Source: Bacteroidota bacterium | Lineage (GTDB): Bacteria > Bacteroidota > Bacteroidia > JABEUT01 | Direction of reading: 5' to 3' | DNA length: 34,821 bases | NCBI GenBank assembly: GCA_013289165.1 | Contig: JABDAL010000016.1 | Coordinates: 1-34,821 of the forward strand | Shown: piece after piece, positions 5,302 through 29,635 of the stretch | Layout of the letters: every line of letters begins with the position of its first letter | How positions within the stretch are numbered: position 1 is the first letter of the stretch | Program-made: the position numbers and the translations under genes | Notes under the pieces: model-generated | The model's database searches: none | The model's input: only the letters and a program-made list of their open reading frames with translations | What the model was told of the DNA's origin: nothing

Positions 5302-6782
5302 AGCTTTACCAAATAAACGATACCCTTGATTTTACCACAATCAAAACTATTCTGAAAGAAAACAGCAGAATTGCCCTTTCGGAAAAGGCGGAAGAGCTCA
5401 TCCAAAAAGGAAGAAAATATTTAGATAAAAAAATTGCTTCATCAGATGCTCCATTATATGGCATTAATACAGGTTTTGGCGCATTACGAAATGTAAAGAT
5501 TGCTCCGAAAGATTATGCCACACTGCAAAGGAATCTTTTGCTCTCCCATGCTTGCGGAGCAGGTGAAGAAGTCCCCCCGGAAATTGTACGTTTAATGCTG
5601 CTTTTAAAAGTGCAGTCGCTTAGTTATGGGCATTCAGGTATAGATATTTCTACTGTAGAAAGATTGATTGACTTATTCAACCATCACATTACACCGGTAG
5701 TATATACCCAAGGCTCGCTGGGTGCTTCGGGCGATTTAGCACCATTGGCTCATCTGTGTTTACCGTTAATTGGCGAAGGAGAAGTTTATTATAAAGGAAA
5801 AAAATTAAGCGCAGCCCAATTATATAAAAAGCTAAAATGGAAACCCCTTACGTTGAAATCAAAGGAGGGGCTTGCATTGCTTAACGGCACCCAGTTTATG
5901 AGTGCCTATGGGGTTTGGCTTCTGCTACAGGCGCAAAGGCTTTCTACTATTGCTGATACTATCGCATCGTTGTCACTCGACTCCTATAATTGCAGGCTTG
6001 AGCCATTTGATGAATTAGTGCATTTCGTGCGTGCCCATCATGGACAAAAAACATCTGCCAATTTTATTTTAGACTGTTTAAAAGGAAGTAAAATGTTTAC
6101 AGCGAAAAAAAATGATGTGCAAGACCCCTACTCTTTCCGTTGCATACCGCAGGTACATGGGGCTGTAAGAGATACGGCAGAATATGTAACTACTGTTTTT
6201 GAAAAAGAAATTAATTCGGTAACCGATAACCCACTTATATTTCCTGTTGAAGATAAAATTATTTCCGGTGGAAATTTTCACGGGCATCCGCTTGCTATTT
6301 CGTTAGATTACTTGTCAATAGCTTTATCCACGCTGGGCAATATTTCAGAAAGAAGAACCTACTGCCTCTTGTCGGGGCAAAGAGGGTTACCTGCTTTTCT
6401 TGCAAAAGACGCAGGGCTTAATTCCGGCCTGATGATTTTACAATACACATCTGCATCTGTAGTGAGCCAGAATAAGCAGTATGCTACTCCTGCATCTATT
6501 GACAGCATTATGTCTTCCAACGGACAGGAAGATTATGTAAGTATGGGTGCCAACGCTGCAACCAAGTGTTTTAAAATCCTGGATAATTTAAAAACCATCT
6601 TTTCGATAGAGCTTATTACGGCCGCACAAGCACTTCAATTTAGACGGCCTGCCAAAACTTCACCTGTGCTGGAAAAATTAGTTTCCGATTTCCGTAAACA
6701 AGTTCCTTTTATTGATAAGGACAGAATCCTAAGCGAAGATATCCGGAAAGGACGGGAGTTTATAGACCAGCGGGAAATTTAG
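5298..6782 (+). CDS. hutH: Histidine ammonia-lyase
   Basis: Converts L-histidine to urocanate and ammonia; cytoplasmic, 494 aa. The MIO prosthetic group forms from Ala143-Ser144-Gly145 in GSLGASGDLAPL. Tyr54 (YGINTGFG), Ser83-His84 (LSHACGAG) and Glu411 (GQEDYVSMG) match histidine-specific HAL positions. Tyrosine ammonia-lyases of flexirubin clusters usually lack the QED glutamate, which argues against that alternative. The gene overlaps hisS by 4 nt (ATGA). Its stop overlaps the convergent cca stop by 4 nt. No hutU, hutI or hutG is present in the window, so the rest of the degradation pathway is either elsewhere or absent. Confidence 0.93.
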   Translation: MKLYQINDTLDFTTIKTILKENSRIALSEKAEELIQKGRKYLDKKIASSDAPLYGINTGFGALRNVKIAPKDYATLQRNLLLSHACGAGEEVPPEIVRLMLLLKVQSLSYGHSGIDISTVERLIDLFNHHITPVVYTQGSLGASGDLAPLAHLCLPLIGEGEVYYKGKKLSAAQLYKKLKWKPLTLKSKEGLALLNGTQFMSAYGVWLLLQAQRLSTIADTIASLSLDSYNCRLEPFDELVHFVRAHHGQKTSANFILDCLKGSKMFTAKKNDVQDPYSFRCIPQVHGAVRDTAEYVTTVFEKEINSVTDNPLIFPVEDKIISGGNFHGHPLAISLDYLSIALSTLGNISERRTYCLLSGQRGLPAFLAKDAGLNSGLMILQYTSASVVSQNKQYATPASIDSIMSSNGQEDYVSMGANAATKCFKILDNLKTIFSIELITAAQALQFRRPAKTSPVLEKLVSDFRKQVPFIDKDRILSEDIRKGREFIDQREI

Positions 6783-8215
6783 TGCTCCGCTCTTTTAAGC
6801 CCCATCTCCTCGCCTTTTTTCACCATAAATTGGTAGGCTGCCTGCTCCTCGTTAGGTATTATTCCATCTAAAATAGCTTCACGTATGGCAGTTTTAATAA
6901 TCCCTACTTCCAGGCAGGGGCCAATGCCAAATGTTTTCATAATATCTTCGCCGGTAACAGGAGGCTGCCAGTTTCGCAAGTGGTCCTTTTCTTCCACATC
7001 TTTCAACTTCTGCCTCACTAATTGAAAATTAGCAAGATATTTCTTTATCTTCTTGTCGTTTTTGGTAGTAATATCTGCCTCGCAAAGCAACATGAGGTCA
7101 TCAATCTCATCTCCGGCATCAGCAAGCAGGCGACGCACAGCCGAATCAGTAACAATATCCTGTGCCAGCACAATAGGGCGCAAATGGAGTTGCACAAGCT
7201 TCTGCACATATTTCATCTTCTCGTTTAAAGGTAGTTTCAGGTCCGCAAAAATTTGCGGAACCATGCGTGCCCCTTTATCTTCATGCCCATGAAAAGTCCA
7301 ACCCACTTTATTATCATAGCGCTTGGTGAGGGGCTTAGCAATATCGTGAAGTATAGCAGCCCAGCGTAGCCAAAGATCATTCGTACGCAATGAAAGATTA
7401 TCCAATACCTGGAGGGTATGATAGAAATTATCTTTGTGGGCTTGTACTCCCACGGTATCCACTCCCTGCAGGGCAGCCATCTCCGGGAAAATAATTTGCA
7501 ACAAACCTGCATCAAACAAAAGGCTTAACCCTACCGAGGGAATATCCGAAAGAATAATTTTATTCAATTCATCGGTAATACGCTCTTTCGATATAATCTT
7601 GATACGGTCCTTATTCCTGCAAATAGATTCAAAAGATTGTTTCTCTATTTCAAATCCCAACTGCGATGCAAAACGTATAGCCCGCATCATGCGCAAAGGG
7701 TCGTCGCTATATGTAATATCCGGGTCAAGCGGGGTACGAATGATACGGTTCTCCAAATCATTAATTCCGTCGAAAGAGTCTACTAATACCCCATAATTAC
7801 TTTTGCTTAATCCTATTGCAAGTGCATTAATAGTGAAATCGCGGCGCTTTTGATCATCGTCCAATGTCCCATCTTCTACAATAGGTTTACGCGAATCACT
7901 GCGATAGGACTCCTTACGGGCACCTACAAATTCAATATTGTAATCGTTGTAGACAATTTGAGCTGTACCAAAATTTTTATACACATTAACTTTGCGGTTA
8001 CCCAGACGGGCAGCCACTTCCATAGCAAGTTCTATTCCTTTGCCGATGGATACGATATCGATATCTTTACAAGGACGGTACAAGAAAAAATCGCGTACAT
8101 ATCCGCCTACCGCATATGCCTCCACACCCAAGCTATCTGCCGCTTCAGATATCACTTTAAAAATAGGGAGCTTTATAGCCTGCCTGCTAATAGCATCTGT
8201 GTCTTCTTTATTCAT
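6779..8215 (-). CDS. cca: CCA tRNA nucleotidyltransferase (class II poly(A) polymerase/CCA family) with HD domain
   Basis: Adds or repairs the 3' CCA end of tRNAs; 478 aa. The nucleotidyltransferase core has GGYVRD at 37-42 and the metal-binding Asp pair in DIDIV (Asp51, Asp53). The nucleotide-selecting motif RRDFTINAL is at 124-132. A C-terminal HD domain is visible with the His-Asp pair at 290-291 (AAILHDIAKP) and further histidines near 266 and 309-311, giving possible phosphohydrolase activity on tRNA ends. The start overlaps the stop of the upstream tsaC-like gene by ATGA, and it is the last gene of the minus-strand cluster. A poly(A) polymerase role is less likely but cannot be excluded by sequence alone. 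Confidence 0.93.
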   Translation of the reverse strand: MNKEDTDAISRQAIKLPIFKVISEAADSLGVEAYAVGGYVRDFFLYRPCKDIDIVSIGKGIELAMEVAARLGNRKVNVYKNFGTAQIVYNDYNIEFVGARKESYRSDSRKPIVEDGTLDDDQKRRDFTINALAIGLSKSNYGVLVDSFDGINDLENRIIRTPLDPDITYSDDPLRMMRAIRFASQLGFEIEKQSFESICRNKDRIKIISKERITDELNKIILSDIPSVGLSLLFDAGLLQIIFPEMAALQGVDTVGVQAHKDNFYHTLQVLDNLSLRTNDLWLRWAAILHDIAKPLTKRYDNKVGWTFHGHEDKGARMVPQIFADLKLPLNEKMKYVQKLVQLHLRPIVLAQDIVTDSAVRRLLADAGDEIDDLMLLCEADITTKNDKKIKKYLANFQLVRQKLKDVEEKDHLRNWQPPVTGEDIMKTFGIGPCLEVGIIKTAIREAILDGIIPNEEQAAYQFMVKKGEEMGLKRAEH

Positions 8216-8769
8216 CGTATAATCTCAATAGCTCCGTTCATACCAATTTTAATAATCCGAGAAGGGGTAGCTTTACCTGTCTCCGATTGCCTCAAAGGTA
8301 CTATGTAATCTACTTTGCTTTTTATGTCATCTCTTATTTCATCGAAAAAAGCGGGAGAAGGGTCCCCGCTTATATTAGCAGATGTAGACACCAATGGCTT
8401 TCTTAAACTATTAATTAGCATCTTGCAGAATTCGTCTTTAACTATCCGTATGGCTATGGTTCCATCCTCCCCTATTAATGTAGGTGCAATGTGCTTCGCA
8501 TTCGGGTAAATAATTGTCAGCGGTTTTTCGGTATATTCTGCCATGTCATACGCTACTTCAGGAATATCTGCATAAAATTCCAGCTGAGTTACTTCTGCTA
8601 CCAAAACTATCATCGACTTGGAAGATGGGCGGTTTTTAATTTCAAATATGCGCTTTACAGCAAGCTCGTTTGTAGCATCGCACCCTATTCCCCAGATGGT
8701 ATCCGTAGGATAAAGTACAACTCCTCCATTCCGCAAGACCTGGATGGACTTTTTAACTTCTTCTATCAT
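8212..8769 (-). CDS. L-threonylcarbamoyladenylate synthase (TsaC/Sua5/YrdC family)
   Basis: Makes threonylcarbamoyl-AMP from threonine, bicarbonate and ATP, the first step of t6A modification at position 37 of ANN-decoding tRNAs; cytoplasmic, 185 aa. It is a single YrdC domain without the C-terminal Sua5 extension. Visible family motifs are GGVVLYPTDTIWGIGCDA (about 15-32), KRIFEIKNRP (about 39-48), PLVSTSANISG (about 125-135) and PSRIIKI near the C-terminus. Its ATG directly follows the stop of the TMTC-like gene upstream (TAAATG) and its stop overlaps the cca start, so it sits in a tRNA-maturation pair at the end of the cluster. Confidence 0.93.
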   Translation of the reverse strand: MIEEVKKSIQVLRNGGVVLYPTDTIWGIGCDATNELAVKRIFEIKNRPSSKSMIVLVAEVTQLEFYADIPEVAYDMAEYTEKPLTIIYPNAKHIAPTLIGEDGTIAIRIVKDEFCKMLINSLRKPLVSTSANISGDPSPAFFDEIRDDIKSKVDYIVPLRQSETGKATPSRIIKIGMNGAIEIIR

Positions 8770-10788
8770 TTATTTTGAAGCGAATTTTTGTAGCCTGCCC
8801 AGATAGTCGGCAGGCACAGTATATTTATTTTGATTTGCTTTCAACGCATAGTTCAGGGCATCTTGTTCGTCAGAAAGCCTATCGTAGGCTACGGAGAGGT
8901 AATACATACACTCCCCGTTATTAGGTTGAAGATCCAATACATGTAAACAATCTTTAACTGTCATCGCAGCGTTACCACCATTTAAATAAGCTTTTCCCCT
9001 ATATAAATAAAAAGCAGGCTCCTGCGGCTTATGGCTTATTAGTTTATCGTACTCTGTAACCGCCTTATTGAATTGTCCTAAATCCATACATACACTTGCC
9101 ATTTGGGCCAGTGTACCGTCTTGTGTTGTATCGAGGGAATAAGCCTTAGTAAAGTCTTTTAAGGCAAGCTCCAATTTCCCCAGGTTGGCATACGTAACAC
9201 CACGATTATCATAAATAGAGGCATCGGTACTGTCATATTTAATAGCCTGTGCAAAACAATACAATGAAGAATCGAACTGCTTACGCAGCCCATATATCAT
9301 AGCCAGATTACGGAAAATGCCTGCATCTTTCACATCCAACCTGACAAGAAGAGTGTATTCCGGGTATGCCTTATCGTACTTGCCGCTATCGGCATAGTAA
9401 TTTCCTAAATCTATATAGGGAAGTTGTGAATGCATATTGCTTTTGGCAATTACATCTGTCCAAAAGGTTTCAGGGTTGTGCCACACTTTTGTACGCCCGT
9501 AACAGAGTACTGCAAACATCAGCGAGAGTCCGGTTATGGCAACTATCACGAGATTTTTTAACGATGGCTTGGCTAATACCAATTCGTCCAGCACACACAT
9601 AATCATAAAGATGATGCCTATATAAGCAACATAGGTATAACGGTCTGCTATAATGGCATCGCCACAGGAAATAAATTGAAGCACAAAAACAATATCAAAA
9701 AAGTAAAAAGCCAGGCCAAACAGGATTATTCTATATAAGTTTTCTTTTCCTTTCCGTTTAAAGTAAAAGGGGACGCATACTATAAGAGCAGTAACGAAAG
9801 GCATAACATAAAACAATACAGGCAATGCCACGCCCACGCGGAAATCAGGATAGGGATAAAATCCATTTAAATGAAACGGCCATAAAAATTTAACCAGGTA
9901 CATGTTAAAGCCATAAAAGGCAAAGAATATCCGGTTGACAAAAGAAACAGTTTGAAAATCGGCAACAGCGCCACTATTTTTCTGAATCAGGTAGGCAACT
10001 ATTCCAAAAATGGCAGAACCCAGCAGGAAAGGTATTTTCTCGATAAAGAGCTTCTTGTCCCATTTTCTTCCCAATAAAAAATCAATAGTAAATAATATGA
10101 GTGGGAATGATACTGCCATTGGCTTAGAAAGACAAGATGCAGCAAAAACTAATAGGGCATATATGTACCATTTAGCCCGGCGGCTATCCAAATAGTTTAG
10201 ATAGAAAAGCAGGCCTAATAAATAGAAGAAAGTATATAATACATCCTTACGCTCAGAAATCCAAGAGACGGATTCCACATGCATGGGATGAATGCCAAAC
10301 CACAGAGCACATATTCCTGCTATCAGAAGCGATGAAGCATATTTCATTTTCAAGTGCTTGCAAAGTGCTGAAGCCAGCAGAAAAACCAGCACCACATTAG
10401 CAAGATGAATTAGGATGTTAGTGAAGTAATACATGTGTGGTTCTAACTGCGAAAAATGGTAATTGACAGCAAGAGAAACCATAGTGAGAGGATGGTAATT
10501 GCTGGGGGTGATACCATGAAACAGCATCATCTTCAGGTTTTCACCGGAAAAACTTTTGATATACTGGTTTTTAACAATATACACACCATCATCCCAATTG
10601 AGAAACTGGTTGTTAAGGGAATAATGAAAGCACCCAAAAGTAAGTATAACAATAGCTCCCAATATAGCATACAGGTGCCATGCCGGATATTCCATTTTAA
10701 CCGGTATTTTGGGTTTAGATACCACCTGTGAACCCTTTTGTTCCGACTTTTTAATGGGTTTGCTATATTTCCGGTTCTTGTTGTTCAT
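8770..10788 (-). CDS. TMTC/PMT-like GT-C membrane protein with C-terminal TPRs, copy 1
   Basis: Inner-membrane protein of 672 aa. A Lys/Pro-rich cytoplasmic N-terminus (1-36) is followed by about eleven hydrophobic helices to residue 430 and six or so TPR units (about 457-672). NWDD puts the Asp66-Asp67 pair in the first extracytoplasmic loop, the position of the catalytic acidic pair in PMT/TMTC O-mannosyltransferases. Other shared blocks are HPLTM at 99-103, HPMHVESVSW at 167-176, SERKDV at 178-183, SKPMAV at 220-225 and ADRYTYV at 380-386. Enzyme activity and sugar donor are inferred, not seen. It is the last of four tandem paralogues. Its membrane half is closest to copy 3 but its TPR half is closest to copy 2. 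Confidence 0.82.
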   Translation of the reverse strand: MNNKNRKYSKPIKKSEQKGSQVVSKPKIPVKMEYPAWHLYAILGAIVILTFGCFHYSLNNQFLNWDDGVYIVKNQYIKSFSGENLKMMLFHGITPSNYHPLTMVSLAVNYHFSQLEPHMYYFTNILIHLANVVLVFLLASALCKHLKMKYASSLLIAGICALWFGIHPMHVESVSWISERKDVLYTFFYLLGLLFYLNYLDSRRAKWYIYALLVFAASCLSKPMAVSFPLILFTIDFLLGRKWDKKLFIEKIPFLLGSAIFGIVAYLIQKNSGAVADFQTVSFVNRIFFAFYGFNMYLVKFLWPFHLNGFYPYPDFRVGVALPVLFYVMPFVTALIVCVPFYFKRKGKENLYRIILFGLAFYFFDIVFVLQFISCGDAIIADRYTYVAYIGIIFMIMCVLDELVLAKPSLKNLVIVAITGLSLMFAVLCYGRTKVWHNPETFWTDVIAKSNMHSQLPYIDLGNYYADSGKYDKAYPEYTLLVRLDVKDAGIFRNLAMIYGLRKQFDSSLYCFAQAIKYDSTDASIYDNRGVTYANLGKLELALKDFTKAYSLDTTQDGTLAQMASVCMDLGQFNKAVTEYDKLISHKPQEPAFYLYRGKAYLNGGNAAMTVKDCLHVLDLQPNNGECMYYLSVAYDRLSDEQDALNYALKANQNKYTVPADYLGRLQKFASK

Positions 10789-10795
10789 TGGACAG

Positions 10796-10814
10796 GCGAA
10801 TTTACATGTTCTTG
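10796..10814 (-). repeat. Conserved 19-nt block upstream of TMTC-like copy 1
   Basis: Seven bases before the copy 1 ATG there is a 19-nt block that matches 17 of 19 bases of the block at 15212-15230, placed identically before copy 3. It includes TAAATTCG, one base off the -7 consensus TAnnTTTG, so it may be an internal promoter or simply retained from duplication. Confidence 0.5.
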
Positions 10815-10837
10815 GAAAACCCGATTCCCAAAATAAT

Positions 10838-13078
10838 CTATTTCAACTTATTCAAATACCCGTCGGGTAGCTTGTAGCCTATTGTTTGTGACATGGTGGC
10901 ATACTTTAAAGCATCTGTATTATTATTCAGGGCGTGATAGGCAATAGAGAGATTATACAGGCACTCTCCATTGTTGGGTTGAAGTTCAAGCAGGTGTAAG
11001 TAATCTTTTAATGCCATAGCAGGCTTGCCCCCATTCAAATAAGCATTTCCGCGCGATAAATAAAATGTAGGCTCTTTAGAATTACGCCTTATGAGCGTGG
11101 TGTAATCATTCACCGCATTACCCAATTGCCCTACCTGTATATACATACTGGCACGCTGCGCCAGTGTCCCGCTCTGCGTGGTATCGAGGGAATAGGATTT
11201 ACTCAAGTCTTTTACTGCAAGAGTAAACTGCTTCATATTGGCATATGTAATAGCGCGATTGAAATAAATGCTGGCATCCACACTATCGTATTTAATTGCC
11301 TTTGCAAAGAAATAAATAGAAGAATCAAATTGCTTGCGCTGCCCATATATCATAGCCAGGTTGCGGTAAACCACGGCATCATGGGAGTTTAATTTATTCA
11401 GAATAAGATATTCCGGGTAGGCTTTGTCATATTTACTGCTATCAGCATAATAAGTAGCCAAATTAAAATATGCGACCGGTGCTTTCTCCCCCTGCTTGCT
11501 AATTACATCGGACCATAAAGTTTCAGGGTCATGCCACACTCTTGTACGCCCATGGGCAAGATAAGCAAGCGATATGCAAATAAGCATCAGCACACCTGAA
11601 ATAACGGCACGGTACGATTTATTCTTATACCAAAACCAATGAGCCAAATAAACCAGAATGAAAATAAATCCAAAATAAGAGACATAGCTATATCTATCAG
11701 ACATGATAGTGGTTCCTGCCGAAAGAAATTGCAAAATAAAAACCACGTTGGCAAAATAGAACCCTATGCCAAACAACATCACCCTGAAAAGGTCTTTTTC
11801 TTTTCTCACTATGCAGAGGGGAACAAGAACAATGGCAGCAGCGAGGAAAGGAGTAACATAAAAAAGAGGAGGTAAATGATAATCGGAAGTAAGATTAGGG
11901 AAAGGATAATAGGAACAAAGATTTACCGGCCATATTGCTTTAAACGCATACATGGTAAATGAATAACAGGAAATGAGCAGTTTTTGAAATACTGAATAAC
12001 CATGAGTAAAAACAACTGTATCATGGCCTACTTCGAGAAATATGGATTGAAGCCCCGATAAAAATGCAATGACAAGAAACATCCATTTTTCAGCAACTAA
12101 TTTAAACAGTGCTTTTCCTTCTTCGTAAATCCAATTTTTCCCTTTTGATATAAATTGCACATCACGCTTTAGTAAAATATCTATAACCAACATGGACAGG
12201 GGAAACGAAACCGCCATAGGCTTGGAGAACAATGAAAGCAGGAAAAATTCGAGCACATAAAAAAGTTCCGGCTTATATTTTATATACTTCCGTTCAACCA
12301 ATATCGCAGCCACCAGCAGCGTCAAGAAGAAAATAAATATCAATGGAATCCATATAGAAAAGTTATGCCCTTTGATAGTAAAATCGAGGCTAAAGCTCCT
12401 TAGGCATATAATTCCGGCTACACACAATAATGCAAGAACAATATTAAGATAGGGCATCCACCTGAATGTTGCCCCCTCTGTATACCGGATATACATCATA
12501 AGCCCCGCAAAGTAGAATACGGAATACATGACATCTTTGCGCTCTGCCAGCCAGGCAACCGATTCCACATGCATGGGATGGATACCATGTACCAAAGCAC
12601 CAATAGCAGCTATCCAGGGAATAAACGGAATAGCTTTATATCCCACCTTGGTCATGGCGCCCATCAGGGTTTTGATAAAATAGAATATCAATATGGCATT
12701 TAAAATATGGAGGAGGATGTTGGTTAAGTAATACCCAAACGGATTCAAGTGTGAAAACTGGTAATTTACTGCCAGCGATAGCATGGTTAAAGGATGGTAA
12801 TAATTCAACGTGATGTCATGGAATAGCATGCTGTTTAAATTCGCGGCAGTAAAAGCAGTTATATAAGGGTCTTTGTTTACATAAATCCAATCATCCCAAT
12901 TAGTGAGAAACCTATTTTGTAAAGTATAATGGAAACAAATAAATATGACTACTGCAACGCCCGCCAATAGAGCCACATTCAGATCACGGCTGTTTATGGA
13001 TACTAACTTCTCCTGTTGTTTTATATTGACAGGACTAACAGCAGCCTTCTTCTGAATATTCTTTTTGGGGGTATTCAT
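10838..13078 (-). CDS. TMTC/PMT-like GT-C membrane protein with C-terminal TPRs, copy 2
   Basis: The longest paralogue at 746 aa. The acidic pair is Asp62-Asp63 in TNWDD. HPLTML is near 95-100, HPMHVESVAW at 167-176, AERKDV near 178-183, SKPMAV at 285-290, and the SDRYSYV block follows. Compared with the other copies there are about 65 extra residues between AERKDV and SKPMAV (about 203-270), containing one or two added hydrophobic segments. TPR units fill roughly residues 525-746 and are nearly the same as in copy 1 (KYDKAYPEY, RNLAMIYG, RKQFDSS and DASIY are shared). The gene starts 11 nt after copy 3 and ends 49 nt before copy 1. The catalytic role is inferred from the fold family. Confidence 0.82.
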   Translation of the reverse strand: MNTPKKNIQKKAAVSPVNIKQQEKLVSINSRDLNVALLAGVAVVIFICFHYTLQNRFLTNWDDWIYVNKDPYITAFTAANLNSMLFHDITLNYYHPLTMLSLAVNYQFSHLNPFGYYLTNILLHILNAILIFYFIKTLMGAMTKVGYKAIPFIPWIAAIGALVHGIHPMHVESVAWLAERKDVMYSVFYFAGLMMYIRYTEGATFRWMPYLNIVLALLCVAGIICLRSFSLDFTIKGHNFSIWIPLIFIFFLTLLVAAILVERKYIKYKPELFYVLEFFLLSLFSKPMAVSFPLSMLVIDILLKRDVQFISKGKNWIYEEGKALFKLVAEKWMFLVIAFLSGLQSIFLEVGHDTVVFTHGYSVFQKLLISCYSFTMYAFKAIWPVNLCSYYPFPNLTSDYHLPPLFYVTPFLAAAIVLVPLCIVRKEKDLFRVMLFGIGFYFANVVFILQFLSAGTTIMSDRYSYVSYFGFIFILVYLAHWFWYKNKSYRAVISGVLMLICISLAYLAHGRTRVWHDPETLWSDVISKQGEKAPVAYFNLATYYADSSKYDKAYPEYLILNKLNSHDAVVYRNLAMIYGQRKQFDSSIYFFAKAIKYDSVDASIYFNRAITYANMKQFTLAVKDLSKSYSLDTTQSGTLAQRASMYIQVGQLGNAVNDYTTLIRRNSKEPTFYLSRGNAYLNGGKPAMALKDYLHLLELQPNNGECLYNLSIAYHALNNNTDALKYATMSQTIGYKLPDGYLNKLK

Positions 13079-13089
13079 ACATACACAAG

Positions 13090-15204
13090 CTATTGACCGC
13101 CGGCTTTTGCCAACTTTTGCAAATCACTTATATATCCATCGGGTAATTTATACCCATTCTGCCCGGCTTTCAGGGCATAGTTGACAGCCTGCGAATACAT
13201 TTTTTGCGCCTTATATGCAAGCGATAAATCGAGCAGGCAATTAGCATCCTTAGGATTGGCACTTAATTCTCTATTGAAATCCTGAATAGCATCTTTAAAA
13301 TCTCCGGTATTAAACTCTGCAACACCTCTGCTCAAATAGTACTCAGGTTTTCTGGGGTCAATAGCAATAAGGCGGTTATAGTCAGCCATGGCAGCAGGAA
13401 AATTCTTCATGTCATTTAAAAGGGTGCGTGCACGGTAATCCAGCAACATCTCGCTGGTAGAGTCCATTTTAAAAGCATGATTATAATCTTGCAGGGCTAG
13501 TTCCGGTTGTCCCATCTTCGAATATGTAATCCCCCGGTCAAGATAGGTATCAAAGCTTTTGGTATCAAGAGACAGGGACTTTGTATATTCTTCCAGCGAT
13601 TTTTGATAATTGCCACGTATGGCCCAAATATTCCCCAGGTTACTATATACGCCGGCATCCTTACTTTTAATTTGTTCGAGTATTTCATAGTTCATATAGG
13701 CACTGTCGTAATCGGGTGGATTTTTATCTTGTACATAATAGTTCCCAAGGTTTTTATAGGAAGTTTCTACCCCCGGATGAACATGAATAATAAATTCGGA
13801 GCGCCCCTTTCCGGCAACAAAAGTAGTATCAACTTTAGCAGGATATTTTGAAATAACATCTTCCCAAAGGGTTTTCGTATTATGCCAAACTTCTGTTCTC
13901 GCCTGGCATAAATAGGCCAGCATACACGAAAATCCGGCGACTATAACTATTACCAGGGTTTTGAGAGACGGCATTTTTTCTATTACCTGGTAAATAAAAT
14001 AGACCAGCATAAAAGTAAACCCGATATACGCAGCATAACTATACCTGTCCGCCATAATAGCCGGGCCAGCAGAAACAAACTGCAGGATAAACATTACATT
14101 GAAAAAATAAAACCCAAATCCAAACAGGGCAACCCGGAAATAGTTTTCCCCTTTTCTGTAGGCAAGATATAATAACCCTGCTGTAACACCAATAGCAACC
14201 AGGGGTGCAAAATAAAAGTAAAGAGGAAGATTATTGGAATCTGTTAATTCAGGATAGGGATAATACGAAGAAAGATGCGTGGGAACAAATAATTTAATGA
14301 GATACATTAAATAGTTGTACCCTACAAACATTATCCGCTGAAATATGGTAAATACCTGGAAGGATGTAATGGAGCCCCCTTCATTGGCCCATTTATACGC
14401 AACGTAACCAAAAATAAGGGATATTATAAGAAATGGAATCTTTTCAAATAATAGTTTCCATTCCAGCTTTCGTTTTAATAATACATCTATCGTAAAAAGC
14501 GACAAAGGAAACACCACTGCAAGTGGCTTTGAAAATAAAGACAGGAAATAAAGCAGCACAACCAACGCCAATTGGGATTTCTTATTTTCCATCACATATT
14601 TTACATACATGATAAGGCCGGGCAGATAGAAAAATAAATAAAGTACATCTTTTCGTTCGGCAATCCACGAAACAGATTCTACATGCATGGGATGTATCCC
14701 CTGCCAAAGGGCACATAACCCTGCCAGGTATGGGATACCCTTAATTTTGCCATAGCCCCTTTTTACCATCGCATTGAACAGCGCAAGCGATAAGAAGAAT
14801 ACCCAGATGGTATTAAACAAATGGAAAAGAACTTCAGTAACGTAATAAGGTTTAGGATCTGCGCCTGAAAAATGCCAGTTAAGAGCAAGAGACAACATGG
14901 TGATAGGATGATAGTAGTTGTGTGTAATATCCTTAAACAATATCATCTTCATATTTTGAGAAGAAAGATTTTTTATGTAGGAATTTTCATACACATACAA
15001 CCCATCATCCCAATTAGTAAACTGGTTACTCAGTGAATAATGGTAGCACCAAAAAGTAACTACCAGTATCCCGCCCAATAAAGCAGAGTTAAGCCAGGAT
15101 GGGTATTCGGGCTTTAGAGCAACTTTAACTTTCGGAACAGCTTGTGGCGACTTTTGTTCAGGCTTTTTTACCGGCTTATTATATTTTTGATTCTTACCAC
15201 TCAT
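13090..15204 (-). CDS. TMTC/PMT-like GT-C membrane protein with C-terminal TPRs, copy 3
   Basis: 704 aa. The N-terminal tail MSGKNQKYNKPVKKPEQK closely matches that of copy 1. The acidic pair is Asp66-Asp67 in TNWDDGLY. YHPITML is at about 98-104, HPMHVESVSW at 171-180 and AERKDV at 182-187, followed by SKPLAV and MADRYSY. Between the last membrane helix and the TPRs it has an extra stretch (after DVISKYP, containing FIIHVHPGVE) that the other copies lack. TPRs occupy about residues 480-704 and end in a KLPDGYISDLQKL tail like the KLPDGYL tail of copy 2. It lies 45 nt after copy 4 and 11 nt before copy 2. Confidence 0.82.
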   Translation of the reverse strand: MSGKNQKYNKPVKKPEQKSPQAVPKVKVALKPEYPSWLNSALLGGILVVTFWCYHYSLSNQFTNWDDGLYVYENSYIKNLSSQNMKMILFKDITHNYYHPITMLSLALNWHFSGADPKPYYVTEVLFHLFNTIWVFFLSLALFNAMVKRGYGKIKGIPYLAGLCALWQGIHPMHVESVSWIAERKDVLYLFFYLPGLIMYVKYVMENKKSQLALVVLLYFLSLFSKPLAVVFPLSLFTIDVLLKRKLEWKLLFEKIPFLIISLIFGYVAYKWANEGGSITSFQVFTIFQRIMFVGYNYLMYLIKLFVPTHLSSYYPYPELTDSNNLPLYFYFAPLVAIGVTAGLLYLAYRKGENYFRVALFGFGFYFFNVMFILQFVSAGPAIMADRYSYAAYIGFTFMLVYFIYQVIEKMPSLKTLVIVIVAGFSCMLAYLCQARTEVWHNTKTLWEDVISKYPAKVDTTFVAGKGRSEFIIHVHPGVETSYKNLGNYYVQDKNPPDYDSAYMNYEILEQIKSKDAGVYSNLGNIWAIRGNYQKSLEEYTKSLSLDTKSFDTYLDRGITYSKMGQPELALQDYNHAFKMDSTSEMLLDYRARTLLNDMKNFPAAMADYNRLIAIDPRKPEYYLSRGVAEFNTGDFKDAIQDFNRELSANPKDANCLLDLSLAYKAQKMYSQAVNYALKAGQNGYKLPDGYISDLQKLAKAGGQ

Positions 15205-15211
15205 TCAGCAA

Positions 15212-15230
15212 GCGAAGTTACATGTTCCTG
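15212..15230 (-). repeat. Conserved 19-nt block upstream of TMTC-like copy 3
   Basis: This block matches 17 of 19 bases of the block at 10796-10814 and has the same 7-nt spacing to the ATG. It contains TAACTTCG, one base from the -7 consensus. Confidence 0.5.
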
Positions 15231-15249
15231 CAAAATATCCAATTTATTT

Positions 15250-17244
15250 TTATGGTATATCCAACCGGGCTTTTAATAGCCGCAAATAGTTATCAGGAAC
15301 AGGATACTGGGCATTTTGAGCCATTTGTGCATATTTATATGCATCATTAAAATTACTGAGCCGGTTATATGTAATGGACAAATAAAACATTCCTTCCGAA
15401 TCGTGGGGGGCAATGCTAAGGTCCTGCAGAAAATCTTCCCGGGCAGAATTAATGGAGCCTTTATCATACTCTGCAACCCCCCGGTAATGAAAATATCGTG
15501 AATCAGACGGATTAACATTTATGACTTCTGTATAATATTTTATGGCGCTGTCAAACTGGTGTGCATTCAAATAAGTATAAGCAGTATTTCGGAGTAGTAT
15601 TTCAGAATTGGGATTAATGTGGGCAGAGCGGTTATAATCTTTTACAGCAAGAGCATATCGGCCCATTGCCGAATAAGTTATTGCCCTGTCTAAATAGGTA
15701 ACCGCATCATTACTGTCTAACTTTAGAGCTGTGGTATAATATTGCAGCGACAGGGGGTAATCTCCTTTTGCCCCTAACAGGCTTCCCATATTACAATATA
15801 CTTGAGGATCGCCGGTTTTTAAATCAATCGCTTCCTTATAGTTTTCATAAGCCTTAGTAAGGTCTCCACTGGCAAAATAATAATTACCAAGGTTATTATA
15901 TGCCTTTATTATCCGGTTCGGATACTGCCTGATAACACTCAGCCACAGGGTCTCAGAACTATGCCAGATAAGGGTTCTCTCATAGCAAAGAAAGGCAAAG
16001 AAAAACATATAAATGGAAACAACCACAGCAAGAATTTTTGTTACCAACCCATCTTTTTCAATAATTCTATAAACAAAATAAGTAAGCGGAAAGAATATCC
16101 CAAAATAACAAACGTAAGTATACCTGTCTGCCATCATCGTAGGCCCGGAGCCTACAATTTGGGAGACTATTATCATGTTAAAAAAATAAAATGCCACTCC
16201 AAAGAGAACAACCCTGAAATTATTTTTGCCGGAACGGTAAGAGAGATATAAAGGTATAGCAACCAATAATAAACAGATAAGCGGCATCAAATAATAAACA
16301 AATGGCAGTTCGCCAGAAGGTCCTGTGGGATCAGGATAAGGATAATAGGCACTCTGAGGAATAGGTATTAATGCTTTTAATATATATTTACAGAAACCAT
16401 AAGAAGCGAATAGAATTCGGTGGAAAAAGCTAAATGACGAATGCTCCTGTATGGAGCCTGCAACGACTTGTAAATGATATGTAAGAGCTAACGAAGCTAT
16501 AGAAATAATAATCAAAAGAGATTTTTCTAATAAAATATTTTTCACTGACAAGGTCTCATCCCGCTTTAATAATATATCTATTGCTAACAATGAAAAGGGA
16601 AACACCACTGCCATGGGCTTAGAAAAAAGCGAAAGCAGAAAGCAAACGAGTACTAGTAAAAACCACCGGCGTTTTTTCTCTTCCGCATACATAAAACGGA
16701 TATACGCTATCATTCCCAAAAAATAAAAGAAAGCATATAAGACATCCTTTCGTTCGGCAATCCAGGAAACCGATTCCACATGCATGGGATGAATAGCATA
16801 TGCAAGGGTGCAGAAAAAAGCAAGCCACTCTTTCCATTTAAAAATACCATATCCACTTTTCTCCATGGACTTTAAAATTGTAAGAACTAAAAAAAATACC
16901 AAACAAGAATTTGCTATGTGTAATAGAATATTAATAAGGTAATACATCCCGGGGCTTAACCCTGAAAAATGGTAATTAATTGCATACGAAATTATGGTAA
17001 CTGGATAATAATAATCTCCGGTTACATCATGAAAGAGCATCATTTTCAAATTAGTGGGAGAAAATGACTTGATAAATATATTTTCGGGAATAAAACGCTG
17101 GTCGTCCCAATTGGTAAACTGGTTCCCTAATGAATAGTGGTAACAAAAAAAAGTAAGCAGGGCAATACCTGCCAGCATTATATACTTGGCCTTTGGCAGA
17201 TAGCCTGCCTCTCCGGCAAGCTTATTAGGGGTTGCACCTTTCAT
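15250..17244 (-). CDS. TMTC/PMT-like GT-C membrane protein with C-terminal TPRs, copy 4
   Basis: 664 aa, the first of the four copies to be transcribed, 12 nt after dapD. The N-terminal tail is short (about 20 residues). The acidic pair is Asp47-Asp48 in TNWDDQRF. HPMHVESVSW is at 152-161, AERKDV at 163-168, SKPMAV at 208-213, and MADRYTYV comes later. It has YYPVTI where the other copies have YHPLTM or YHPITM, so a His in the second motif is replaced by Tyr. Five to six TPR units fill the C-terminal third (GDYPLSLQYYTTALKLDS, AVKDYNRSA and others). It is the most divergent TPR region of the set. Role as in copy 1, inferred. Confidence 0.82.
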   Translation of the reverse strand: MKGATPNKLAGEAGYLPKAKYIMLAGIALLTFFCYHYSLGNQFTNWDDQRFIPENIFIKSFSPTNLKMMLFHDVTGDYYYPVTIISYAINYHFSGLSPGMYYLINILLHIANSCLVFFLVLTILKSMEKSGYGIFKWKEWLAFFCTLAYAIHPMHVESVSWIAERKDVLYAFFYFLGMIAYIRFMYAEEKKRRWFLLVLVCFLLSLFSKPMAVVFPFSLLAIDILLKRDETLSVKNILLEKSLLIIISIASLALTYHLQVVAGSIQEHSSFSFFHRILFASYGFCKYILKALIPIPQSAYYPYPDPTGPSGELPFVYYLMPLICLLLVAIPLYLSYRSGKNNFRVVLFGVAFYFFNMIIVSQIVGSGPTMMADRYTYVCYFGIFFPLTYFVYRIIEKDGLVTKILAVVVSIYMFFFAFLCYERTLIWHSSETLWLSVIRQYPNRIIKAYNNLGNYYFASGDLTKAYENYKEAIDLKTGDPQVYCNMGSLLGAKGDYPLSLQYYTTALKLDSNDAVTYLDRAITYSAMGRYALAVKDYNRSAHINPNSEILLRNTAYTYLNAHQFDSAIKYYTEVINVNPSDSRYFHYRGVAEYDKGSINSAREDFLQDLSIAPHDSEGMFYLSITYNRLSNFNDAYKYAQMAQNAQYPVPDNYLRLLKARLDIP

Positions 17245-17256
17245 TGCAAAACGCTA

Positions 17257-18078
17257 TTAAACCGGGACGTGATAATCTCTTAATACCTCATTCAGCGAGG
17301 TTTTGGTATCCGTACTTTCCTTGCGTTTTCCAATAATCAGGGCACAATTAACATGGAAATTTCCGGCAGGGAATTTTTTTTCGTACGAACCGGGAATAAC
17401 TACCGAGCGGGGCGGAACCACACCTTTATATTCAACAGGGTTTTCCCCACTCACATCTATTATTTTAGTAGACTGGGTTAATACTACGTTAGCGCCCAGC
17501 ACGGCCTCTTTCTCAACCCTTACACCCTCTACCACTATGCAGCGAGAGCCTACAAAGCAGTTGTCTTCAATAATCACCGGTGCAGCCTGTGCGGGCTCCA
17601 GTACCCCTCCTATTCCAACACCTCCGCTTAGGTGTACATTTTTTCCTATCTGGGCACAGGAACCCACCGTAGCCCATGTATCAATCATAGTACCACTATC
17701 TACATAAGCACCAATATTAACATAGGAGGGCATCATAATTACCCCAGGCGCCAGATAAGAACCATACCTGGCAATTCCATGCGGAGCAACCCGAACACCT
17801 CTGTCCCCATAATTTTTTTTCAAGGGTATTTTATCAAAAAATTCTATCTCGCCGGCTTCTATTTTCCTGGATGTCTGGGTAAGGAAATAGAGTGTTATCG
17901 CTTTCTTTACCCATTCATTAACCCTCCATCCTGAAGAATCTTTTTCCGCTACACGCACCTCCCCTTCATCCAGCTTTTCAATCACTTTAAGAATAGCGTC
18001 TTTTATGCCGGGATCTTTTATTAATTCCCTCTCCTCCCAAGCCTTATTTATAAGCTCAATTTCTGTATTCATACTCAT
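17257..18078 (-). CDS. dapD: 2,3,4,5-tetrahydropyridine-2,6-dicarboxylate N-succinyltransferase
   Basis: Succinylates tetrahydrodipicolinate in the lysine/meso-diaminopimelate pathway; cytoplasmic trimer, 273 aa. Residues 1-100 are the helical N-terminal domain (SSGWRVNEWVKKAITLYF). From about residue 105 a left-handed beta-helix of hexapeptide repeats follows (GVRVAPHGIARYGSYL, IGAYVDSGTMIDTWATVG, IGKNVHLSGGVGIGG). The C-terminal end has VVPPRSVVIPGSY and CALIIGKR. Length and motifs are typical. Start ATG is at 18078; a second in-frame ATG two codons in is possible. It has an exact -7 element at 18089-18096 and is the first gene of the minus-strand cluster leading into the TMTC-like array. 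Confidence 0.95.
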   Translation of the reverse strand: MSMNTEIELINKAWEERELIKDPGIKDAILKVIEKLDEGEVRVAEKDSSGWRVNEWVKKAITLYFLTQTSRKIEAGEIEFFDKIPLKKNYGDRGVRVAPHGIARYGSYLAPGVIMMPSYVNIGAYVDSGTMIDTWATVGSCAQIGKNVHLSGGVGIGGVLEPAQAAPVIIEDNCFVGSRCIVVEGVRVEKEAVLGANVVLTQSTKIIDVSGENPVEYKGVVPPRSVVIPGSYEKKFPAGNFHVNCALIIGKRKESTDTKTSLNEVLRDYHVPV

Positions 18079-26569: not shown

Positions 26570-29500
26570 TTACCTTATCAGCTGTATAAACCCTTCCTGC
26601 TTGTAGGTTTTGCTTTGGCAGGTAGCATCTATTACATAATAATATACCCCATCAAGAGCCTTATCCCCACTTTCGGTATTCCCATTCCAATATTGGTACT
26701 GGTTGTTTGATGTATAGATTTCCTTGCCCCAGCGGTCAAATATGGTCATAGTCCATGCATCTATATTTTCAGTTTTAATATACAATACATTGTCCTTTCC
26801 ATAAGGGCCTGGATAATTTGGAGTAATTACGTTAGGTATAGTCAGATTGAAACAAGGGACATCTATCACCACCGTTATGAGCTGCACACTCTCACACCCC
26901 AATCTGTCCGTTCCAATTACGGTATAGGTGGTTGTTACCTTTGGTGTAACCTTCACTGAGTCGCATAAGGGAGGATTTAAACAAGTCACCTCATTGGCAT
27001 TTAACCACTGATACTTTAATGTATCTGGGCCTGCAAAAAGTATGGTCGTATCATGTTCTATCAATAGGGTTTGATTGCAACACGCTATCATATTAGGATT
27101 GTTTGGTGTTACCGTAACAACCCTGTTAGTCTTACAGCCATTGGAAACCGTTACCGTGTAACTAGTTGATGAATCAGGATTCAAAATATTGATGCTGTCA
27201 GTTGTAGCTCCCCCGGGCTCCCAGGTATAAGTAAATGGTCCTTGGCCCGATACACTACTTGCCTTTAGTGTAACAGGAATGCCTGCACAGGCAATAAGAG
27301 AGGGTGTAATATTGCCTACCGTCGGAGCAACCCTTAAATCTACTGTAAAACTATCCACGACTGCACAACCAAGGCTGTTCTTCACGGTTACATATATAGT
27401 CGAATCCTTCGCAATGCCTCCTGTAAAATAGGCTGTAGTAGTTCTTCCATTGCTCCATTTATAACTGGCTCCCCCTGTCACAAATAAGGTGTCTTTTACT
27501 CCGCGGCATTTCCAGGGTGTACCTGTAATTACCGGCTTAGGCAATGGAACTACTACTACCGTTTTAGAATATTGCACACTGTCGCATATGCCATATAGAG
27601 TGGCCGTGTAGGTAGTGGTTACTGTATCATGTACAATGATAGATGAACTGGTAGCTCCATTACTCCATTTATATGTGGCAGGCTGCCCGTTTGTTTGTAT
27701 AGTTAACTGGGAAGTCATACTTGGACATATTATAGAGTCCTGTATGCTAACCGAACCGAAGACTTTTGGTTTTATATAAATGGTAGCAGTTGTTGAATCC
27801 GAACATACACCATTCGAAACAGTGAGCGTATAGGTAGTTGTCGCCTGGGGTGCAACTATTATACTGTCCGATGCCTGCTTGGTACTCCACCGGTATGTTC
27901 CGCCCCCGCTCCCCACAAGCTGCGTAGGAGATCCCTGGCATACCGTGTCAACAGCAGGAGTAATAACCGGAGCAAGTGGAGGTCCCACGAGTATCTTATC
28001 TGTAATTGTATCATTGCAACCAAAAGTGGAGCCTATAATAGTATAGGTGGTAGTTACAGTTGGAGAAGCAACAGGGCTGCTGCAATTATTACAACTTAAA
28101 CTATTCGAAGGAGACCAGGTGAAGTTAGATGCCCCGGTAGCATTCAATTGTATAGAGTTGCCACGGCACAATTTTATATTGGGTGGCGTAATAGTAACAG
28201 TAGGTGTAGGTGTAACACTCACCGTTACAGTAATAGAGTCCCTGCAACCATTGGAACCTGAAAAAAGTGTATACGTAGTAGTTGTTGTAGGGCTTGCCAC
28301 AGGGTTTGCACAATTAGTACAGGTCAAGGCCGTAGCGGGTTTCCAGGCATAATTGATTCCACCTGTAACATTCAATTGAACCTTATTACCCAAACAGATA
28401 CCGGGATTTTGAGGCGTTATTACAGGATTTGTTTTGGGACCAACCACTATCTGAACCGTATCCTGGGCAAAAGTGCAATTCGAAGAATACCCTGTAACAC
28501 TGTACGTAGTATTCGCATTGGGTGATGCCTTAGGATTTGGGCAATTACTACAACTGAGCCCAGTTGCAGGTATCCATATATAACTATTGCAGCCAGTTGC
28601 TGTAAGTTGGACACTGTCACCCTGGCAAATGGTATCACGCTTGGGGCTTATACTCATGGTTTTACTTGCCACTGCGCTGGGATGACAGGTAACGCAATTC
28701 GTATTTTGCCAATACAGGCCTGACAATACCCATGAATAGCAATCGCCACCATTGTTTGTATACGCAGAATAGGTCGTACTGGTCTGGCCGGTTGTTACAG
28801 AGGTTGTAACAGTACAAAAATTATAAAACAAATTAGAGAATTCGCCTGTGGAACCATTAAAGGTCTCATCATTAATACCGGCATTTACATTGATCTGCAT
28901 ATCGGCAAAAATCCCAAATGCTTGTGCGGATGAACTAGCTTCACAAACATTGAAGCCCGTGAATGTTTGTGATTTAACACCGCCTCCGGTCCAAAGCCCA
29001 TCCCAAAGAATAAGGCTTCCACTATACTTAACGCTTTTATCTACGTAAACAATTACAAAAGTAATTCCATCTATTGCCTGTGCAGTAATACCGGTACCAC
29101 TTAGGTTAACAAGATACGACCCTCCTCCTTTTATACAATTTGTAACATCTACACGGTAAGCAATAGTTCCGGTCTCACCCCAGCATTTGGAAGGGCCTGT
29201 ACCAATTGAATCAGCAGAGTAACTAAAGACTTGTGCAGAAGGATTCGTTATACTTACAGAAGCAGGATTGGCTGCGTAAGGAGTAAAATAAGAGCCATTG
29301 AAATATAAAAGTGCTTTTACTACAGAATCAATATTCTTGCAGGTGTCAAATGTCATTGGAATGGGGGCAGGAAGTCCGGTTCCATTCGCATTAAAATTAT
29401 ATTGCTGGCTCCTGGTTTCTACCAGTATGGAACTTTGTTGCCAATTTAATCCGCAAATATTTTGAAAGTAATAAGATTTAGCCAAGCCTCCCGAACTATC

Positions 29501-29635
29501 CGCCGGACGGGGATGAGCCGCTAAGTTCTTATTATTTAGCTGGGAATAATTAATTCCGTTATGGCAATCTACACATTGGCTATAGAGCTTAACGGCAGCA
29601 ATAAGCAATATGCTTACAAAGTAAAATTTTTTCAC
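26570..29635 (-). CDS. T9SS type B sorted surface protein with Ig-like repeats and two CXXCH motifs
   Basis: 1021-aa secreted protein. Residues 1-20 are a signal peptide (start GTG at 29635). The mature chain begins with CVDCH at 21-25, and a second CVTCH is at 314-318, both heme-c attachment motifs. Residues about 50-310 form a beta-rich domain that vaguely recalls DUF3344 (VDVTNCIKGGGSYLVNLSG, ITFVIVYVD). From about 330 to 920 there are Ig-like/PKD-type repeats; three of them carry the pattern (L)(S/T)C.NC.(N/S)P.ASP..TTTY at about 360, 438 and 513. The last 90 residues are the gliding-motility-associated C-terminal domain (IFDRWGKEIYTS, WNGN, GVYYYVIDATC), the T9SS type B sorting signal. 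Possible adhesin or redox-active surface protein; function not established. Confidence 0.87.
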   Translation of the reverse strand: MKKFYFVSILLIAAVKLYSQCVDCHNGINYSQLNNKNLAAHPRPADSSGGLAKSYYFQNICGLNWQQSSILVETRSQQYNFNANGTGLPAPIPMTFDTCKNIDSVVKALLYFNGSYFTPYAANPASVSITNPSAQVFSYSADSIGTGPSKCWGETGTIAYRVDVTNCIKGGGSYLVNLSGTGITAQAIDGITFVIVYVDKSVKYSGSLILWDGLWTGGGVKSQTFTGFNVCEASSSAQAFGIFADMQINVNAGINDETFNGSTGEFSNLFYNFCTVTTSVTTGQTSTTYSAYTNNGGDCYSWVLSGLYWQNTNCVTCHPSAVASKTMSISPKRDTICQGDSVQLTATGCNSYIWIPATGLSCSNCPNPKASPNANTTYSVTGYSSNCTFAQDTVQIVVGPKTNPVITPQNPGICLGNKVQLNVTGGINYAWKPATALTCTNCANPVASPTTTTTYTLFSGSNGCRDSITVTVSVTPTPTVTITPPNIKLCRGNSIQLNATGASNFTWSPSNSLSCNNCSSPVASPTVTTTYTIIGSTFGCNDTITDKILVGPPLAPVITPAVDTVCQGSPTQLVGSGGGTYRWSTKQASDSIIVAPQATTTYTLTVSNGVCSDSTTATIYIKPKVFGSVSIQDSIICPSMTSQLTIQTNGQPATYKWSNGATSSSIIVHDTVTTTYTATLYGICDSVQYSKTVVVVPLPKPVITGTPWKCRGVKDTLFVTGGASYKWSNGRTTTAYFTGGIAKDSTIYVTVKNSLGCAVVDSFTVDLRVAPTVGNITPSLIACAGIPVTLKASSVSGQGPFTYTWEPGGATTDSINILNPDSSTSYTVTVSNGCKTNRVVTVTPNNPNMIACCNQTLLIEHDTTILFAGPDTLKYQWLNANEVTCLNPPLCDSVKVTPKVTTTYTVIGTDRLGCESVQLITVVIDVPCFNLTIPNVITPNYPGPYGKDNVLYIKTENIDAWTMTIFDRWGKEIYTSNNQYQYWNGNTESGDKALDGVYYYVIDATCQSKTYKQEGFIQLIR

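Follow-up and report, generated by a model that had tools for sequence, protein, structure and literature searches.

Four consecutive genes of a Bacteroidota bacterium, here called A to D, encode large membrane proteins that are probably periplasmic protein glycosyltransferases: judged by sequence and structural models, they would transfer a polyprenyl-linked sugar to exported proteins that are selected by C-terminal tetratricopeptide repeats (TPRs). The genes are located on contig JABDAL010000016.1 (assembly GCA_013289165.1), of which positions 1 to 34,821 were analysed; this stretch of 34,821 nucleotides is called the window. On the features tested, A to D belong to a family that is sister to the TMTC proteins (CAZy family GT105) and not to TMTC proper. 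The trees of their glycosyltransferase C (GT-C) cores and of their TPR tails disagree, and cores and tails have different histories: gene D appears to unite a core lineage of its own with a C-type tail. The four genes are:

Gene A, 15250..17244, minus strand: 664 amino acids, GT-C core (about residues 1-444) and TPR tail; key residues D47 D48, R165-K-D167, S208-K209-P210 and D373-R374 (open reading frame (ORF) list, motifs, model)
Gene B, 13090..15204, minus strand: 704 amino acids, GT-C core and TPR tail (ORF list, Pfam, motifs)
Gene C, 10838..13078, minus strand: 746 amino acids, GT-C core with an insert of about 60 residues before SKP, and TPR tail
Gene D, 8770..10788, minus strand: 672 amino acids, core of a lineage of its own in the tree and C-type TPR tail (trees, identities)

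An earlier note on this DNA had described four minus-strand genes for proteins of 664-746 amino acids with shared motifs and TPRs, separated by 11-49 nucleotides. The ORFs match this exactly: the gaps are 49, 11 and 45 nucleotides (D-C, C-B, B-A), all four ORFs are intact, NWDD, HPMHVES, ERKDV, SKP(M/L) and DRY each occur once per protein, and Pfam TPR models match all four. Over their whole length B, C and D are 44, 39 and 39% identical to A, respectively.

The GT-C fold proposed in the same note is borne out by structure prediction. The model of gene A was built from an alignment of 79 sequences (the four window proteins and 75 relatives collected with peptide patterns that span HPMHVE and ERKDV) and reached a predicted local distance difference test (pLDDT) score of 94 and a predicted TM-score (pTM) of 0.90. 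In a fold search with the full-length protein, TPR proteins dominate the best 50 matches listed, and for this reason the core was folded alone, with the 58 of the 79 sequences that make up the core set (pLDDT 91.6). When this core was compared to the PDB with Foldseek, ranks 1-19 were all GT-C enzymes or complexes containing oligosaccharyltransferase (OST): PglB (E 3.1e-4), ArnT (7.5e-4) and Pmt4 (3.5e-3), as well as STT3/OST, DPY19, AftA and AftB, with TM-scores by query of 0.34-0.55 and E≤0.001 for three matches only. In three translocon entries among them, the matched chain is presumably STT3. The sole sequence match of the core among solved proteins, PufX (E 0.48), is spurious.

We read the gene A model as 11 membrane helices, and with this topology the DD, SKP, FYPYP and DRY motifs would lie outside the cytoplasm, on the periplasmic side, as would the TPR tail. 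The insert of gene C, which is common to the C-type copies, adds two hydrophobic segments, so that the membrane topology would be kept. Across the 58 cores 23 columns are invariant. D47, D48, K209, K241 and R374 are kept in 79/79 sequences; the acidic pair is present throughout, and its assignment to the first extracytoplasmic loop is supported. H152, V156, E157, R165, K166 and D167 are also kept in 79/79, and these counts are biased since the relatives were collected by patterns over HPMHVE and ERKDV.

Core and tail histories

Within the window, identity between tails is 58% for C and D as against 33-37% for the five remaining pairs; the cores of C and D share 43% identity, and the D core is nearest to that of B (50%). 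Trees were calculated for 34 proteins, comprising array copies, single-copy relatives and outgroups of our choice. In the core tree, groups A, B and C are each supported by 100/100, group A taking in a single gene of genome G001, and the D group (the window gene and copy 3 of G007; 100/99) branches outside A-C. In the tail tree, the C and D tails form one clade (99/98). A clade of C and D cores was rejected in approximately unbiased (AU) tests (p 0.002), as was a C-only tail clade (p 0.023); these p values are optimistic, as the groups were picked after the identity table had been seen. In sliding windows the tail shows the change clearly from about residue 450 on.

A second exchange was found in copy 1 of G001. 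Its core groups with copy 2 of G001 and G008 (100/99; with its own copy 2 alone, the support is only 80/51) and its tail with the first copies of G004 and G008 (100/100). AU tests rejected the opposite groupings (p 0.001 and 7e-59), and sliding windows place the switch near residues 400-475. A B-type copy of G002 (L133:9035-11467) carries an insert at the position of the C insert, with low identity to the C inserts. As the windows of this insert are only 6-40% identical to them, a third exchange is not claimed.

The earlier note had also considered that the copies are specialised for different substrates. Specialisation of the paralogues is suggested by their tails: in the five pairs of groups that do not combine C with D, these are 32-36% identical as compared to 42-46% for the cores. 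Among orthologues, tail identities average 70, 63, 52 and 63% for A, B, C and D, respectively; tails that diverge more than the cores are found here in C but not in A, B and D.

The genome also carries a parallel array: contig C11 (L144:5644-15233) encodes five tandem GT-C proteins with TPRs that are of the type defined by the DUF1736 domain (PF08409). Such arrays were found in the four genomes of the genus that were compared (five genes in our genome and in G007, four in G002 and G005), and inside an array the cores are 46-69% identical to each other, the tails 28-58%. A test for exchanges in these arrays, based on identity only, revealed no case like that of C and D.

Relation to TMTC and other GT-C families

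The occurrence of full-length TMTC homologues in prokaryotes has already been remarked on (PMC7801869), and bacterial proteins laid out in this way are not new as such. Among the open-licence literature matches listed (including PMC7801869, PMC6801728 and PMC8476585), there was no functional study of a bacterial TMTC-like protein. The discordant histories of cores and tails described above look new.

The window proteins share with TMTC1-4, the O-mannosyltransferases of cadherins, a GT-C core with about 11 membrane helices as read from the model, the C-terminal TPRs and the occurrence as four paralogues; common to both cores are the DD of the first extracytoplasmic loop, an RxD-type motif, a K motif and an Arg in the last loop. 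Unlike TMTC1-4, they are encoded in a prokaryotic tandem array. Membership in TMTC, which the earlier note had implied, is not supported by the features tested. PF08409 matched 0/58 window-type cores at E≤0.1, and a search of the genome at E≤1 did not find A, B, C or D. That search returned the five C11 genes (21-26 bits, below the Pfam cut-off of 27) and a gene on C23, all at E≤0.001, and with E 0.05 a gene on C9; the curated cut-off is reached on C23 only, and there with in-frame neighbours included. Matches over the cut-off are present in 19/40 genomes (our own and relatives). The two types are related: comparison of profiles from 58 window-type and 20 DUF1736-type cores gave E 1.2e-48 over 401 columns.

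For the human TMTC proteins, PMC7801869 gives a list of motifs and two ligands of a divalent metal, E and D, that were modelled by docking. The DD, YxP (YHP/YRP), RxD, K and R motifs are kept in the window type, including the M7 Arg of the last extracytoplasmic loop (R374 in 79/79). The metal ligands are not: in M4, KE(T/Q)xxT, K209 is present in 79/79 and followed by P (48), A (25), G (2), S (2), I (1) or T (1), but by E in 0/79, and the column aligned to the D of the DW motif in loop EL4 (M5) holds F (51), Y (15), L (7), I (3) or V (3), and D in 0/79. The 36 distinct DUF1736-type rows (of 46) have E in 34 and D in 34, including the five-gene array of our genome; the D lies in the DUF1736 loop used to find the rows, so that its count leans on the search, whereas the E lies outside this loop. 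The C11 proteins carry KE, DY and GER where the window type has SKP, FYPYP and DRY. The two exceptions (L163, L169) lack both residues; their joint loss fits a working pair. It also hints at repeated loss of the metal site. The window-type enzymes, in which the modelled ligands are replaced mostly by P/A and F/Y, may be independent of metal. PMTs are not known to depend on a metal.

With PMT/POMT (GT39) the window type shares the GT-C fold, but it has TPRs in place of MIR domains. Neither PMT (PF02366) nor MIR matched the four proteins (E≤0.01), and neither is one of the 21 families that matched in the 58 cores (E≤0.1). PMT_2 (PF13231) matched 14/58 cores at E≤0.1; among the four proteins only D was found, with 21.7 bits by hmmscan and 24.1 bits by genome search (27.2 with frame neighbours), the gathering cut-off being 26.1. 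TMEM260 (GT117) resembles the window proteins in having a GT-C core and a TPR-like tail, but no window gene matches its domain, PF11028, for which the genome has a single match elsewhere.

The locus and its variation

The array is embedded in a longer run of genes with the same direction and gaps of at most 49 nucleotides (dapD, A, B, C, D, sua5/yrdC, cca), to which belong:

dapD, 17257..18078, minus strand: tetrahydrodipicolinate N-succinyltransferase, upstream anchor (Pfam, synteny)
sua5/yrdC, 8212..8769, minus strand: downstream anchor, abutting gene D (Pfam, synteny)
cca-like gene, 6779..8215, minus strand: presumably a tRNA nucleotidyltransferase, a name we assume from reading the sequence rather than from a family search; 4-nucleotide overlap with sua5 (ORF list, synteny)

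The array had been regarded as one transcription unit. The tight arrangement agrees with this, and the single transcript that we infer would extend from dapD to cca. The number of terminator-like sites (10) is close to that of shuffled sequence (10.2), and none of the 10 falls inside a gap; promoter matches of the sigma-70 type number 45 vs 37.1 expected (standard deviation 4.9).

The same array recurs in genomes of the genus; this recurrence and the 39-44% identity to A exclude a chance arrangement. Both flanks (dapD and sua5-cca) enclose four copies in the window and G002 and two copies in G001 and G008. G004 has dapD followed by two copies, G005 has dapD, A, B and C before the contig ends, and G007 a partial A-like copy, B, C and D ahead of sua5-cca. 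In G006 and G010 two copies precede sua5 without dapD, which in G006 sits on a separate contig without the array. No array contig was seen in G003 and G009 (68 and 57% complete). This variation between two and four copies at a shared locus across the genus looks new. Outside the genus, dapD is followed at a distance of about 1 kb by sua5 or cca in 8/23 loci (1.5 kb of flank examined). The gene in between is, by reading, GT9-like in six and GT4-like in two of these (L196, L201, L202, L203, L206, L208, L212, L216), and Pfam confirms the call for the three loci tested.

When the genome itself (2.2 Mb, 70% complete) was searched with the core, 16 genes matched at E≤0.01, eight of them strongly (>280 bits). 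Core matches at 1e-10 are present in 28/40 genomes searched, our own included, and some other loci contain pairs or triples of strong matches. Across the phylum, the window family was found in 11/197 genomes (≥90% complete, E≤1e-50, at most eight candidates scored per genome). A scan of named genome contigs with peptide patterns returned at least 587 stretches, at least 578 of which were confirmed; the 80 examined are by title nearly all from Bacteroidota, with two from Candidatus Eisenbacteria and two from uncultured bacterium. A plasmid search with A gave 56 records, none spanning 80% of the query, and the best 15 of the 56 match the C-terminal, mainly TPR, part.

Proposed function and its alternatives

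In the mechanism that we favour, A to D would be GT-C glycosyltransferases of the inner membrane whose active site faces the periplasm. The donor would be a sugar linked to polyprenyl phosphate, most likely a single hexose, which is transferred to Ser/Thr residues of exported proteins. Past the last membrane helix, the TPR solenoid in the periplasm would bind the acceptor protein, and each copy would serve a different set of substrates. Duplication at one locus and recombination near the junction of core and TPRs would then create new combinations of cores and tails. PMC11292533 contains the (unproven) proposal that the TPRs of human TMTC and TMEM260 recruit specific Ig-like domains.

An acceptor other than a protein seems rather unlikely to us. 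The enzymes would then decorate surface glycans or lipids, as ArnT-like or O-antigen- or capsule-modifying GT-C proteins, with the TPRs as an assembly scaffold; the structural matches to ArnT, AftA and AftB and the GT9/GT4-like genes that occupy the place of the array in other families of the class agree with this. Diverged TPR solenoids, however, fit the recognition of proteins better than that of a single glycan acceptor, and the closest characterised architectures, TMTC and TMEM260, modify proteins (PMC11292533). It is improbable that the four are true TMTC (GT105) O-mannosyltransferases set apart from the animal enzymes by divergence only. The common layout and the aligned DD, YHP/YRP, RxD, K and R motifs would suit such enzymes, and two DUF1736-type relatives have also lost both metal residues, which on its own is thus not decisive; but DUF1736 matches none of the 58 cores, and the residue pair missing from all window-type sequences is present in nearly all DUF1736-type relatives. 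We see hardly any chance that A to D are inactive or regulatory proteins retained as TPR scaffolds. The lost metal positions might suggest this, yet DD, K209, K241 and R374 are kept in every sequence, the four window copies included, and none of the genes is broken.

Several observations weigh against a protein glycosyltransferase with exchangeable tails. A sequence search for a solved GT-C relative of the core found none. The widest-shared cluster within 5 kb is present at only 8/80 loci, with no conserved neighbour that might be a donor synthase or a substrate. Among immediate neighbours, 10 Por_Secre_tail and 4 CHU_C proteins of 76 compare to 5 and no more than one, respectively, of 76 length-matched controls, a weak enrichment in type IX secretion domains (Fisher p 0.05 for 14 vs 5, 0.09 for 14 vs 6, 0.28 for 10 vs 5); the test omitted only five dapD-array loci, and L058, L062 and L065 are from the same genus as well. 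The core signal of D is mixed in sliding windows, the AU tests are optimistic as stated, and gene conversion of no functional significance could account for the exchanges.

Type IX cargo enrichment, weak once length-matched, was dropped as support. In L107, L062 and other loci, some homologues adjoin large proteins of the type IX secretion route that contain SprB, PKD, Calx-beta or Ig_7 domains. The window itself encodes, at positions 26570-29635, a possible type of substrate, which has a CHU_C type IX secretion domain and matches Ig_7 weakly. A candidate for the donor synthase is a GT2 gene that adjoins homologues in L084 and L086; its best match in our genome is 29% identical.

According to PMC12871550, the Bacteroidota have a phylum-wide O-glycosylation system without an identified transferase. 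The periplasmic O-glycosylation proposed for the window genes resembles this system, but their family is too patchy for a phylum-wide enzyme, and an accessory, dedicated role is likelier, as judged from its occurrence. A TMEM260-like (PF11028) protein is present in 197/198 Bacteroidota genomes, mostly as one copy and in some as two to four, and in 1/14 control genomes, the Bacteroides. Our genome is included:

PF11028 gene, C63:8803-9330 (L157): single match in the genome (profile search)

Human TMEM260 is a GT-C O-mannosyltransferase of Ig-like domains (PMC11292533). This near-universal occurrence fits the initiating transferase of a phylum-wide system, and makes the TMEM260-like protein a candidate for that enzyme. 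Among the open-licence papers searched, none mentions TMEM260 together with Bacteroidota; two mention GT117, and none names DUF2723 or PF11028.

Returning to the proposed protein glycosyltransferases, one may tentatively regard the locus as a glycosylation cassette with interchangeable specificity modules. A single chemistry would be combined with several TPR tails that are reshuffled near a fixed junction in a tandem array, and the set of substrates would evolve by tail exchange, next to a second, DUF1736-type array of four to five genes and without the metal ligands of TMTC. The metal site modelled for TMTC is not universal in the superfamily, as it is missing in the window type and in 2/36 DUF1736-type relatives. 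Moreover, within one bacterial genus the TPR-containing GT-C proteins have diversified into two multi-gene arrays that exist in parallel, and the natural chimaeras of cores and tails make the proposal of TPR-mediated recruitment by TMTC and TMEM260 testable in a bacterium.

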